A stretch of 64,000 nucleotides of DNA, taken from positions 62,001-126,000 of the forward strand of contig JAQUZB010000001.1 of the NCBI GenBank assembly GCA_028691535.1, written 5' to 3'. How positions within the stretch are numbered: position 1 is the first letter of the stretch; every line of letters begins with the position of its first letter. The DNA is from Candidatus Altimarinota bacterium. GTDB taxonomy: Bacteria; Patescibacteriota; Gracilibacteria; BD1-5; UBA6164. A program made the translations under genes and the position numbers. Of this stretch, positions 9,918-64,000 are shown one piece after another. The notes beneath the pieces were generated by a model that was not told the DNA's origin, made no database searches, and saw only the letters and a list, made by a program, of their open reading frames with translations.

Positions 9918-11525
9918 ATGAGACATTTAATTTTTAGAATTTTTTTAATTTCAATTTCAGGTATTTTATTATTGTCATATGTTTTTCCATGGCATAACTA
10001 CAATATAAATGTACCTTTTTCAGGAGGAGATTATAGATTATGACTTGATTTACAATGATGAATTGAATTGGATTACAAAATTGATTTATCAGAAGTTTCT
10101 AAAGCTTCAGATTATAATAGTAAAAAAGAAAAAGAAATTGTAGAATGATTAAAGTCAATAATTGATAAAAGAGTTGAAACATTAAATATAAATGATTCTG
10201 AAATAAATGATGCATCTTATGCATGAGAAAATCATATAATAGTTCAAATTCCTCTAAAATGAAATGATAGCTTAGAAAATAGTTTAAATATAGAAAAAGC
10301 TAAAGAAGCAATTTGAAAAGTAGTTAAAATTCAATTTAAAGAGAGAAAAACAAGTTTTACACAAGAAGATTTTGATGCTAGAACTAATATAGCACAATCT
10401 GCTTTAAATGAAGTTTCTGCATGAGAAAAATTTTCAGTTGTTGCTGCAAAAACATCTTTAAATCATGAAAATATTATTTCTTGAACTGTTTCTAGTTTAG
10501 AAGAGTTTATAAAAACTGATAAAGAAATAAAAAATAATCAATTAAATGAAGTTGAATTATTAGATTGAAATGTTTGATATTTATTAGTTGAAAATTATAT
10601 TAAAGATGCAAAAATAAATTATATATTTGTATCAAAAACTCCATCAGAATGGACTGCTGCGGTTGATTCTCAATGAAGAGTTTTAGATGATAAATATTTT
10701 TCACAATCATCAGTTCAATTTAATGATGCATTTCAACCAATGATTGAATTAGTTTTTAATAATGAATGAGCAGAAATTTTCTGAGAATTATCTAAAAGAT
10801 TAATTGGTCAACAAATGGCAATATTTGTTTGATGAGAGATGTTAACTGCACCTGTGATAAATGAAGCAATATATGGTTGAAAAGCTGTTATAACTTGAAA
10901 TTATACTCCTGATGAGGCAAAAAAATTATCAAACGATATAAATACATGAGTAGTACCAGCACCAATTTATTTAACTAGTGAAAAAACTATTGATTCAAAG
11001 ATTTGAGCAAGTTCACTTGAAAAGTTAGTTGTTGCTTGATATATGTGATTCTTATTAATATTTTTATTCTTAGTATTTACATATAGATTATCAGGTTTGA
11101 TGGCATCAGTATCTTTATTATTATATGTGCTTATTGTATTAGCAATAGTAAAAGTATTTTGAATAGTACTAACTCTAGCTTCAATCGCAGGTCTTATATT
11201 ATCTATATGAATCGCTATAGATTCAAATATTCTTATATTTGAAAGAATAAAAGAAGAATTAAGAAAATGAAATGATATTATGATATCAACTGATACATGA
11301 TTTAGAAAAACTTGGTCAGCTATATGGGATTCAAATTTTACATGACTTATTGTTTCATTTATATTATTTATATTTTGAGTTAATTTAATTAAATGATTTT
11401 GATTAATGTTATGACTTTGAATATTGGTTTCACTTTTTACTGTTATGTGGATTTCAAAAGTATTTTTACTTTTAAATTCAATTACTATAAAAAATAAAAA
11501 TACTTTTATCTGATTTAAAAAATAA
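9918..11525 (+). CDS. secD: Protein translocase subunit SecD
   Basis: SecD assists SecYEG-driven export using the proton gradient. The 535-residue protein has an N-terminal membrane helix, the family start of the periplasmic domain (FSGGDYRLGLDLQGG), a large extracytoplasmic P1 region with a GRVLDDKYF segment, GQQMAIFVGGEMLTAPVINE, and five C-terminal membrane helices containing LTLASIAGLILSIGIAIDSN and ILIFERIKEE. Length is normal for SecD alone; no SecF domain is fused and no secF follows, since the next gene is on the opposite strand. In many bacteria secD and secF are adjacent, so secF must be elsewhere or absent. Confidence 0.95.
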
Positions 11526-11552
11526 AAACCGCTTTAGCGGTTTTTATTTTTT
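11517..11552. terminator. Shared terminator between secD and the RnfD-like gene
   Basis: 16-bp inverted repeat (11517-11532 against 11537-11552, loop TTTA) with the GC core CCGC/GCGG and T-runs on both strands. The secD stop is in the left arm and the RnfD-like stop overlaps the right arm. Confidence 0.85.
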
Positions 11553-12522
11553 ATTTACATATTAAATTATTACATATATTATTTATTATAAAATCTGGTT
11601 TTCAATTTATGTAAAGTAAAGTTGATAATCATATAATTAATAAGATAGTAATTATATAAAAATATAAATTTAATAAATTATATTTATTTTTTATCTTTAT
11701 TATATTACTTTCTAAATACCATATAAGTGGAAGCTGCATAGTACTTATAAATAATGATCATAATAATGCATAAATATAATTTATAAAAAATGTTAATATA
11801 TAAAAAATTAGTACTAAGTTTATTGCATAAAAAAATCTAGATAATGATTTTCAAGGGACTGTTTTAGGATCACTTATCATATAAAACATAAATATAAAAA
11901 ACGTTACACTGAAGTATTCCATAGCAGTACTTACATTTACATAATTAGGTATAATTAAAAATAATATAAGATGTAAAAAGAAAAATGGTGCTAAATAGTC
12001 AATAAAATACTTAAATTTAAAAAATTCATAAACTCTATAATTTATGAAAACTCAAAGAAATCATATTATAGATATTATTAATATATATTTATAATTTAAT
12101 TCTCATATATAATTTCACCAGTGTAGTCACTCAGTCCATGTATAATTTTGAAATAAAATTAGAGTTACAAAAACTCACATATTCGATGGATTGAAAAAAT
12201 GTCTTCAATTTATTCTTATTAAATTCTTTCAGAGAATAGATATTAATCCTGCAAATAAATATATTATTAATAAATCACTTCTTAAAAATGTACTTATTCA
12301 AAATCATGAATTTAATCACGAAAATGGAAAGTGGAATTTTCAAGTTTTAATTCTTATAAATATGATATCTGTAATTATAGTCGTTGAAAATATAATAAGT
12401 AATTTTAAATAACTTAAATTTAATCAATAAAATTGAACTCAAATTATAATTATCATTACAAGTATTACAGTTTGATTTATTTGTATATTTGATAATATTA
12501 GTTTTTTTATTTTTTTATACAT
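11551..12522 (-). CDS. RnfD/NqrB-family membrane protein, orphan
   Basis: A 323-residue protein with about eight to ten hydrophobic helices. Two segments match the NQR2/RnfD/RnfE superfamily: GRHFFNPSNMGVF (the family's N-P-A-A-like loop) and MISDPKTVPGKSLSR (the family's D-P-K-T-S-P segment). In Rnf and Nqr complexes these loops bind flavin covalently or coordinate redox cofactors. No other rnf or nqr subunit is in the window, and the usual S/T-G-A-T flavinylation motif was not seen. It may be a redox subunit working with partners elsewhere, or a stand-alone relative. Family call is moderately sure; function is not. Confidence 0.65.
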
Positions 12523-61224: not shown

Positions 61225-62205
61225 TTAAATATATAACAAAGAATTAAGTTTGTCAATTATTTCTTTTTCAATAGTTTTTAGTTTTTTATTTGTTCTAAAA
61301 CCTGCTGCAAGTTTATGTCCTCATCATCAAAAAGTAGCACATAAATCTCATACACTGTATTCTTTTGACCTAAAACTAGCTTTTACTTCATCTCATAATT
61401 CATGAAGTAAGAATGCTACTTCACATCATTCTATATTTATGAGTCTATTTATTATTCCAGAAGTATCTTCATCTCCAGTTCAAGTTTTCTCAAAATCTTT
61501 TTTAGTTATACTTGCCCAAATTATTTTTCAATCTTCATTTTTTTGAAGTTTATCAAATACTATTCAAACAAGTTTTGTTTTATTGTATGTAGCTTTTTGG
61601 AAGAAGTTATACATTGGAGCTCTGAAATCTGCTCATAAATCCATAAGTTTAGCTGCAGTTACCAGAGTTGAACTACTAGTATTTTGATTATAAAAAATAT
61701 TTGTATCAGTGTGAATTCAAGCTGTTAAAAGTGTAGCAATTTTTGGAGTTATATATTTAGTAAATCAGATTTTTTCAATTATATGAAATGTAAGTTCGCA
61801 AGTAGAAGAGTATTTATCATTTACTATGTTTATACTTCAAAATCAATGATTTGTCATATGATGATCTATAACTACGAAATCTTTTTCTTTAAAAATATCT
61901 TCATTTTTTATATAAGTTTCTCCTAGTTGTCATAAACTAGCTGCATCAAAACTTATAATTAAATCGGGATTATATTTTTTTATATCTAAATCAATTTCTA
62001 TTATTTCACTTGATTCTAAAAAATCAAAATTCTCAGGTGGTAACATATCATTTACTGCCTTTACATTTTTACCTATTTTTTTTAATATATAATAAAAACT
62101 AGCAAGTCATCAAAAAGCATCTGGATCCATTCTTATATGGTTTATAAGTAGTATCTTGTCAGCTTTTTTTATCAATTTTGCTAGTTTTTTTATGTTTTCT
62201 TTCAT
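61225..62205 (-). CDS. nrnA: DHH/DHHA1 phosphoesterase, NrnA-like
   Basis: Degrades nanoRNA or phosphorylated nucleotides such as pAp. The 326-residue protein has INHIRMDPDAFGGLAS (metal His and Asp), FDAASLGQL, VVIDHHMTNHG (the DHH motif), LTAGIHTDTNIFYN with a metal Asp, and the C-terminal DHHA1 block FGGGGHKLAAGF. Length is typical (about 310-340). This and the HAD gene downstream may be one transcript. NrnA is consistent with the beta-CASP RNase in this window as part of RNA turnover. Confidence 0.9.
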
Positions 62206-62275: not shown

Positions 62276-62303
62276 TTGACTTTTTTATAAAAATTATTAT
62301 AAA
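62276..62303 (+). promoter_or_regulatory. nhaD promoter
   Basis: TTGACT (62276-62281), 16-base spacer, TATAAA (62298-62303). Leader is about 35 bases, too short for a large riboswitch. Confidence 0.6.
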
Positions 62304-62332
62304 TATAGGCGCTAAAAAATTTTTGGCTTTAA

Positions 62333-62338
62333 AAGGAG
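62333..62338 (+). promoter_or_regulatory. Strong Shine-Dalgarno site of nhaD
   Basis: AAGGAG lies six bases before a GTG start. Native genes in the window start with ATG in A/T-rich sequence lacking such a site, so this supports a foreign origin. Confidence 0.7.
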
Positions 62339-62344
62339 AATACC

Positions 62345-63601
62345 GTGGAAAATATTTTGCAGTTCATAGTTCTAATCCTCTTCTTGGTAGCGTTTGCAGC
62401 TATCATCTTTGAGGAAAAGCTCGGGTTTGAGAAATACAAGACCAGTATGTTTTTTGGTCTTTCTGCCTGGATTTTGTTGCTCATTGATGGACACTTCAAT
62501 GGAAAAGAAGCATTTACAAAAATGGAACATGCTTTTCATGAGTATGTTCTTGAAATTGCGATGCTTTGGCTCTTCTTAATTTGTGCTATGACATTTGTTG
62601 CTTATCTCGATAAGCGCAAGTGGATTGAAAGGGCGGTAATGAAAACACTGCCTGCACAGATGACAGAAAAGAAGTTCTTGTTCATCATGGGTGTATTTAC
62701 ATTTATCTTTAGTGGGGTTGCTGATAATCTCACGGCAACTTTGGTTGCTTTGAGTATCGTTCTTGTGGTGATGAAAGGCGCCAATGTAGATACTCTGATT
62801 CGGTTCGCAGTGATGATCATCTTTGCAGCGAATGCAGGTGGTCTTCCGCTCATCACGGGTGATGTGACAACTCTCATGATTTTTGTTGCAGGGAAAATCC
62901 ATATGGTCGAGTTACTTCGTCTGTATATTCCTGCACTGATTACGAGTTTTGTGCTTTATGCATACCTTGCACGTGGTTTGTCCGGAAAAATCACAATCCA
63001 AAAGGAAGGAGCATCACTCAATTCTTTGGATACCAAAATTGCTGTAATTTTCATCATGACGATTGCTTCAATTTTGGCGGGTCATGTGGCTTTTCACCTC
63101 CCTCCGATGCTTGTCTTCTTGACTGGTTTGTCGGTGATGTTCTTGGTGATTGCTCATGACAAAATAAAAACAAAAAATGAGGTGAAAGTCCTTGAATATG
63201 TGCAACATGTTGAGTTTGATGCGCTTTTCTTCTTCCTTGGTGTCCTGCTTCTCGTGGGTGCACTCAAAGAGGTTGAGTTGCTTGGAAAACTTGCCATGTT
63301 GTATGAAGTAATGAACCCAATACTTGCAACATTCTTTATTGGTATCCTGTCAGCTGTGGTTGACAATATCCCAATTACTGCTGCTATGCTTAAGGCCGAT
63401 CTACCGCTCGATGAAGTGGGTTGGATGCTTATGACTTATGCAGTTGGAATCGGCGGATCAATACTCGTGATTGGTTCTGCCGCAGGTGTTGTGGCGATGA
63501 GCAAGGTGAAAGGACTCACTTTTGGTGCATATCTGAAATACACTCCTGTGGTTTTCACTGTGTATGCATTAGGAATGGGAATTACCTACATGATTGCTTA
63601 G
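62345..63601 (+). CDS. nhaD: Na+/H+ antiporter NhaD, probably horizontally acquired
   Basis: Exports Na+ in exchange for protons. The 418-residue protein (GTG start) has the ArsB/NhaD layout of about eleven to twelve helices, with FSGVADNLTATLVALSI and AVVDNIPITAAML, the paired D-N loops of the ion site, plus GGLPLITGDVTTLMIF. It contains no UGA codon, uses GGN for all glycines, ends in UAG and is visibly richer in G+C: two of its 60-base lines count 24 and 31 G+C against 11 in a line of the neighbouring nrnA gene. Because it lacks UGA it reads the same in either code, as a gene arriving from a standard-code donor would. A chimeric join cannot be excluded. Confidence 0.93.
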   Translation: MENILQFIVLILFLVAFAAIIFEEKLGFEKYKTSMFFGLSAWILLLIDGHFNGKEAFTKMEHAFHEYVLEIAMLWLFLICAMTFVAYLDKRKWIERAVMKTLPAQMTEKKFLFIMGVFTFIFSGVADNLTATLVALSIVLVVMKGANVDTLIRFAVMIIFAANAGGLPLITGDVTTLMIFVAGKIHMVELLRLYIPALITSFVLYAYLARGLSGKITIQKEGASLNSLDTKIAVIFIMTIASILAGHVAFHLPPMLVFLTGLSVMFLVIAHDKIKTKNEVKVLEYVQHVEFDALFFFLGVLLLVGALKEVELLGKLAMLYEVMNPILATFFIGILSAVVDNIPITAAMLKADLPLDEVGWMLMTYAVGIGGSILVIGSAAGVVAMSKVKGLTFGAYLKYTPVVFTVYALGMGITYMIA

Positions 63602-63612
63602 CTCTTCGGAGC
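63601..63612 (+). other. UUCG tetraloop hairpin after nhaD
   Basis: GCTC-TTCG-GAGC, a stable C(UUCG)G hairpin beginning at the last base of the nhaD stop codon; may protect the message end. Confidence 0.6.
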
Positions 63613-63618
63613 AATTTA

Positions 63619-63646
63619 AAAAACCCTAGCTTTGGCTAGGGTTTTT
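63619..63646 (+). terminator. nhaD terminator
   Basis: 12-bp arms (AAAAACCCTAGC, 63619-63630, against 63635-63646, loop TTTG) followed by T-rich sequence; GC-richer core than native terminators. Confidence 0.85.
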
Positions 63647-64000
63647 CTTTTTCTCTAAATTTTAGACATAAAAAAACTTAAGCATATTGGGTAATAGTGG
63701 CTCAAGTTATTAAGTGTCTAAATTCACTTCCTAGATGATAAAAAAAAATTTTTGTAGTCTAATCTAGGGGAATAAAGATCGGTTTTTGTAAAACTAATCC
63801 TTGTTTTATCTTGATGGTTCTAGCATCTAATTTAAACTCTGTTTGGGTAATTATTATAGAGATATTCACCATTCTCTTTGGTTTTTATTTTTGCAAATTA
63901 TTTTGCGGTTTTTTTGGTGTTAGTTATATTCATCCAGCAATTAAGATTTTCTTAATTTCTAAATGAATATAACTATCTACCGTTTTTGTTTTTATTTTTG
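63647..64000. other. Gene-free right end with inverted repeats
   Basis: No convincing coding frame in either code. Inverted repeats: TTTAGACA at 63661-63668 with TGTCTAAA at 63715-63722; CCTAGAT at 63730-63736 with ATCTAGG at 63762-63768; and AGTTATATTCAT with ATGAATATAACT near 63922-63973. These could be structured RNA or the edge of an acquired segment. A 37-codon minus-strand frame at 63759-63872 is too short to call. Confidence 0.5.

Follow-up and report, generated by a model that had tools for sequence, protein, structure and literature searches.

The nhaD gene of the analyzed DNA, a 64,000-nucleotide stretch (the window; C17:62001-126000) of a genome of 1.26 Mb in 20 contigs, is best explained, with a probability of about 0.8, as an intact and probably functional antiporter gene that came from a standard-code bacterium of moderate GC content and now occupies a multiply filled slot in code-25 Gracilibacteria. 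Its composition is foreign, its site is empty in other genera and holds different occupants in congeners, and its substitutions do not follow the host pattern. The gene and its translation signal are as follows.

62345 to 63601, plus strand: nhaD, Na+/H+ antiporter of 418 aa, with GTG start, TAG stop, 0 TGA and 30 GGN codons, and a GC content of 0.417
62333 to 62338, plus strand: Shine-Dalgarno (SD) motif AAGGAG, 6 nt 5' of the start codon and unique among 343 sampled open reading frames (ORFs)

The first-pass annotation had singled out nhaD as foreign in a UGA=Gly host by its lack of UGA, its GGN glycines, GTG start, AAGGAG motif, UUCG hairpin and UAG stop, and each of these features was recovered in the sequence. 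That reading is supported by codons, third-position GC content (GC3), SD motif, empty site, patchy distribution and presence in three assemblies. The gene differs from its host in both composition and translation signals. Of the sampled ORFs it alone bears an SD motif, and of those with at least 8 glycines it alone is UGA-free; within the window, no other ORF of at least 200 aa stays open under the standard code. At the host TGA rate, taken from the 58 other window genes in which TGA makes up 79% of glycine codons, the probability of finding no UGA among 30 glycines is 4e-21. Comparison was extended to a 431-kb genome sample holding 343 ORFs of at least 100 aa, 284 of which have at least 8 glycines. 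Among these 284 the TGA fraction of nhaD, 0, is the lowest and the next is 0.10; SD-like 5-mers precede 0 of the 342 native ORFs. The GC3 of 0.43, against a host value of ~0.09, is the second highest among the sampled ORFs, and the one higher ORF (L082 803-1420, G000 C3) was rejected as a gene, being a spurious GC-rich frame that overlies a tRNA-Met/Ser/Ser/Asn cluster.

What evidence identifies the host as a code-25 organism? The 59 window genes carry 1106 TGA versus 323 GGN glycine codons, and these genes are intact as members of their families under code 25 only, with LigA, for example, scoring 722 bits. A search of the window genome and seven relatives for prfB (RF2) gave no match above the cut-off; in seven of these eight genomes there is a single release-factor gene, which scores below the prfB cut-off and has UGA codons itself. 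Proteomic validation of UGA=Gly in Gracilibacteria is credited to Hanke et al. 2014, as cited in PMC6851277. At the 3' end, the 16S rRNAs of G023 and G001 (L098, L100; G000 sample) carry GGACTATCTCCTTA in place of GGATCACCTCCTTA, so that the anti-Shine-Dalgarno sequence is altered, in the same family as the sampled genome, whose native ORFs show no SD motif. Separately, UGA accounts for ~16-36% of glycines in ribosomal-protein-like genes (L087 1181-2568, L093 14489-15172) versus 79% overall, which suggests selection against UGA-glycine at high expression.

Assignment of the protein to the NhaD family rests on a match to NF038006 (NhaD_1) of 181 bits against a cut-off of 80, together with a match to the Pfam ion transporter superfamily family CitMHS of 94 bits against a cut-off of 31.9. 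The equivalog model TIGR00775 is covered almost entirely at 197.6 bits, short of its cut-off of 577.1; for this reason the protein lies outside the core of the canonical proteobacterial family and takes its name by NF038006 only. Ten polar residues (S123, D127, N128, N163, D173, T175, T176, S336, N341 and S378) are invariant in 12 aligned NhaD sequences, and we take these to match the residues of functional importance in V. cholerae NhaD (Habibian et al. 2005). Among the slot copies of nhaD, dN/dS ranges from 0.04 to 0.10 and hence the protein has been under purifying selection, much of which may date from the donors. The most likely role, predicted from these comparisons, is to maintain pH and sodium homeostasis by Na+/H+ exchange. 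With the NhaD antiporters of Vibrio and Halomonas (PMC1552076, PMC5942162) the protein shares a full-length profile match, and with proteobacterial NhaD the aligned motifs S..DN, N.GG, GD.TT, DN.P and GG.....GSAAG; it differs in being only 30-34% identical to proteobacterial NhaD and in lacking the N-terminal extension of Salinivibrio-type proteins. A sequence search of solved structures gave no match to NhaD.

The gene sits in a slot bounded by native elements:

61225 to 62205, minus strand: nrnA, of the DHH/DHHA1 oligoribonuclease/pAp phosphatase type; a native gene (17 TGA) that bounds the slot on the left
62276 to 62303, plus strand: sigma-70-like promoter TTGACT-16-TATAAA, host-type and AT-rich, predicted by consensus match
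~63601 to 63612, plus strand: small GCTC-UUCG-GAGC hairpin directly 3' of the nhaD stop
63619 to 63646, plus strand: intrinsic terminator AAAAACCCTAGC-UUUG-GCTAGGGTTTTT, aligned 3' of all slot occupants, with compensating stem changes
63654 to 64000, minus strand: 3' part of a structured noncoding RNA of ~480 nt in all that runs on to ~C17:126127, right border of the slot

The nrnA product matches Pfam DHH and DHHA1, scores 111 bits against NCBIfam NF053633 (below the cut-off of 350) and has orthologues in the congeners. In an alignment of upstream regions, TTGACT...TATAAA/T is clear in four of the genus's five species, irrespective of the gene downstream. The terminator, as CCAGGC-UUCG-GCCUGG or a compensated form, is found in all five. 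The GC-rich terminator had been read as a further mark of foreign origin, and this does not hold: in the congeners a near-identical hairpin occupies this position after genes of quite different kinds, which identifies it as resident and not imported, and the genome sample contains other hairpins with at least 5 G/C pairs. Sub-gathering Rfam matches across terminators were taken as chance. The small hairpin has a GAAA-loop version in the congener G004, is decayed in G005 and is missing from G001 and G003; it probably came in together with nhaD. The portion that looks imported would thus comprise the SD motif, the reading frame and this small UUCG hairpin. A search of the slot flanks for integration-marking repeats returned only AT-rich repeats, which are probably due to chance.

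All five nrnA-bearing species of the genus share one order: nrnA, slot, noncoding block, ligA. In other genera (G022, G019, G011 and G023) nrnA adjoins the noncoding RNA with 56-129 bp between them, and it follows that the intervening DNA is an insertion confined, among the genomes examined, to this genus. Copies of nhaD that are 90% identical, UGA-free and preceded by SD-like motifs lie between the same neighbors in G005 (JAQTWV010000001.1, a 971-kb contig) and G004 (CALMDL010000244.1). The slot of G003 instead holds an nhaA gene (L036 7807-9102, minus strand; 39 GGN, no internal TGA, GC 0.41), whose product matches Pfam Na_H_antiport_1 with 215 bits and is 54-57% identical to alphaproteobacterial plasmid NhaA. 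In G001 it holds a native-coded gene of 805 aa (L035 7479-9896, minus strand; 55 TGA) with a twin-arginine-like N-terminus (RRNFLK). The 805-aa protein gave no match in Pfam, NCBIfam, PHROGs or PADLOC and is present in G001 alone among 40 relatives, and an antiporter label is for that reason not given to it. In both G003 and G001 the gene after the occupant encodes a short-chain dehydrogenase and contains 14 TGA. Elsewhere near the slot, L019 2972-4396 and its orthologues show G005 to be 89-91% identical in amino acids to G001 and G003 and 78% identical to the window genome, unlike nrnA, which is a sign of apparent interspecies recombination within the genus.

Composition shifts sharply at both edges of nhaD, as would be expected if a contaminant gene had been joined into the contig during assembly or binning. 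The same gene with the same junctions is nevertheless present in three separate assemblies that differ by 10-15% in nucleotides, one of them on the 971-kb contig, which is a strong argument against the chimeric contig that had been named as a possible refutation and makes such an artefact exceedingly improbable.

How often has the slot received nhaD? Between the window genome and G005, the dS of nhaD is 0.62 and that of nrnA, ligA and other neighbors 0.63-0.73. This equality with the flanks, together with the site, promoter and terminator that the three nhaD species share, would fit one ancient gain by the common ancestor of the genus, passed on by vertical descent and later replaced in G001 and G003, with selection, for example for fast or accurate translation, keeping the gene GC-rich and UGA-free. 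Such gene-specific codon selection is the main rival to recent import, and well-expressed host genes do use fewer UGA (0.16-0.36). However, divergence inside code-25, AT-rich cells should give host-type changes. Because parsimony polarizing of the G004 and G005 changes was judged to be biased by base composition, conditional flip rates were used instead: across 20 native pairs of host orthologues, the probability of UGA facing GGN is 0.49 (~0.30 per half path) and that of A/T facing G/C at 4-fold sites is 0.82. In nhaD, 0 of 27 shared glycines are encoded by UGA in the window or G005 copy and, of the 4-fold sites with G/C, just 19-33% have A/T opposite, far too few for a resident gene. Among the 57 glycines of the two copies ~17 UGA would be expected at the half-path rate of 0.30, and finding none has a probability of ~1e-9. 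Moreover, low-UGA host genes, ribosomal proteins included, keep a GC3 near 0.1 and have no SD motif, and for this reason selection against UGA alone cannot account for nhaD. The tree of the gene is also at odds with its surroundings, in that nhaD groups G004 with G005 (dS 0.28, with flanks between the same genomes at 0.58-0.61) while the flanks group G004 with G001 and G003. A single entry followed by vertical descent thus appears unlikely, and the substitution pattern argues against a long stay of nhaD in a code-25 genome. The simplest reading is that related standard-code donors supplied nhaD on at least two likely occasions, perhaps three, each a separate and recent entry or replacement of an allele, a count which assumes that nhaD would otherwise evolve as host genes do.

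The source of the import was sought in a 24-row NhaD tree in which six plasmid-borne NhaD rows alone represent lineages outside the Candidate Phyla Radiation (CPR), a thin sampling. The nearest sampled relative of the slot nhaD is G023:C35 (47% identity, 100/100 support), a code-25 gene with 21 TGA and 8 GGN from another genus of the same family. The donor had been expected far from CPR, which this tree does not show. Placement beside a code-25 gene had also been named as grounds for rejecting foreign origin; the sister is indeed a code-25 gene, but codons and substitutions oppose long residence under code 25 and the non-CPR side of the tree is sparsely populated. Donor searches matched only the two congeners in GTDB r220 and nothing in IMG/VR; the best plasmid match was ~34% identical and matches in 380 genomes of the phylum were at most 36% identical. 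The well-supported G023:C35 sister would suit a native Gracilibacteria nhaD that is UGA-free by chance or local codon bias. Against this stand the empty site in other genera, the patchy occurrence of NhaD (at E<=1e-20, matches in 10 of the order's 77 genomes) and the non-host GC3, SD motif and substitution pattern, and G023:C35 can equally be read as an older, converted import from the same donor group, so that native origin is very improbable. G023 has a second NhaD on C28 (L040 ~10212-11630) with a GC of 0.44 versus ~0.27 for its neighbors, a UAG stop and an AGGAG motif; at 63-65% identity to Thiothrix and Sulfuricella NhaD it nests within Proteobacteria in the tree, and by these sequence characters counts as one more foreign NhaD, in a different code-25 genus. 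The tree likewise sets UGA-free G033:C13 beside UGA-rich kin (G013, G010 and G003:C7). Such pairing would arise if the same donor groups had contributed at different times and the older imports had since been converted.

What becomes of a standard-code stop in these cells? The first-pass annotation reasoned that a gene ending in UAG or UAA is safe to acquire while one ending in UGA would be read through. The stop of nhaD is UAG and the reasoning about read-through is right; as a filter on acquisition it fails, since two acquired antiporters end in UGA. One is the G003 nhaA, whose UGA lies near the end of the alphaproteobacterial relatives and whose code-25 frame runs on for 35 residues, in a tail reading GGLSQLK..., across its own terminator hairpin. 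The other is the foreign-looking nhaD of G033:C13 (L039 9093-10493; 32 GGN, GC 0.33), whose sole TGA is the former stop, which would become the first glycine of an 8-residue tail, GRIKNGWK, before a UAA inside a hairpin-like stretch. With no RF2, both should be read to the next UAA. Because the extended G003 frame crosses the terminator, transcripts ended there would be without a stop codon; a tmRNA gene is present in G003, and tmRNA could rescue these non-stop nhaA transcripts. In code-25 hosts, nearby backup stops keep standard-code phage genes viable (Liu et al., PMC10746230).

We propose the following sequence of events. A standard-code nhaD would land in the interval from nrnA to the noncoding RNA, downstream of a host-type promoter and upstream of a resident terminator, bringing its own ribosome-binding site, reading frame and small 3' hairpin, and would be expressed from there. 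Since UGA=Gly merely adds a sense codon, the standard-code frame would be correctly read and the stop alone would matter: UAG or UAA would end translation as usual, and UGA would be read as glycine and leave a short tail. Within the genus the slot would then have been refilled, with nhaD in three species through at least two entries or replacements, nhaA in a fourth and a native-coded gene in a fifth. Tentatively, and at somewhat less than even odds, the slot may be a landing or exchange site with resident promoter and terminator that has taken in fresh standard-code cation antiporters of neighboring bacteria at least three times (nhaD at least twice, nhaA once), tolerates UGA tails and in G003 gives a partly non-stop mRNA needing tmRNA. 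This history suggests that Na+/H+ exchange is a recurrent need of small, probably host-dependent cells.

Changes of genetic code are often proposed to be a wall against gene exchange, but the slot indicates that standard-code genes cross into a UGA=Gly genome. For incoming genes the barrier raised by a stop-to-sense change looks near zero; in the opposite direction code-25 genes would be cut at their UGA codons. One locus offers matched cases (empty, nhaD with UAG or UAA, nhaA with UGA and a native-coded gene) and so forms a natural test of gene transfer between genetic codes, in which the age of an import can be compared with native genes through the appearance of UGA glycines. The code-11-compatible phages of code-25 Gracilibacteria and Absconditabacteria (Liu et al. 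2023, PMC10746230) likewise place standard-code genes in a UGA=Gly host and likewise have UGA stops followed by backup stops. Those cases differ in being phages, the prophages all being code 25, whereas the slot genes are stable chromosomal ones with an empty site, other occupants and native flanks. Gene gain from non-CPR bacteria was also suspected in a closed Gracilibacterium genome (Sieber et al. 2019, PMC6851277); that region had host-type alternative coding, whereas the slot nhaD is still standard-coded and its empty site and other occupants are known.

The noncoding RNA at the right border is not part of the import and immediately precedes nrnA in six genera of Gracilibacteria, in tandem in two. 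Its ~480 nt appear, from sequence comparison, to be a new RNA; Rfam held no family match for it, and RNase P and tmRNA were rejected as its identity, both being located elsewhere. Copies of this conserved block are found at the following positions.

Window 63654 to 64000, continuing in L019 to 8128, minus strand: noncoding RNA of the window genome
L037 9105-9580; L032 2601-3130; L030 910-1445: further noncoding RNA copies
L029 2566-3050 and 3209-3718; L033 1619-2085 and 2205-2715: noncoding RNA copies in tandem

The A-rich linkers (AAAAAUAAAAACAAAAA) are invariant, and a CAUGGUGAAUAG loop and a terminator are further common features. In an alignment of 12 sequences 75 pairs are predicted; 45 of them show compensatory changes, against 6-14 such pairs in slid controls, and pairing holds in 96.3% of cells.
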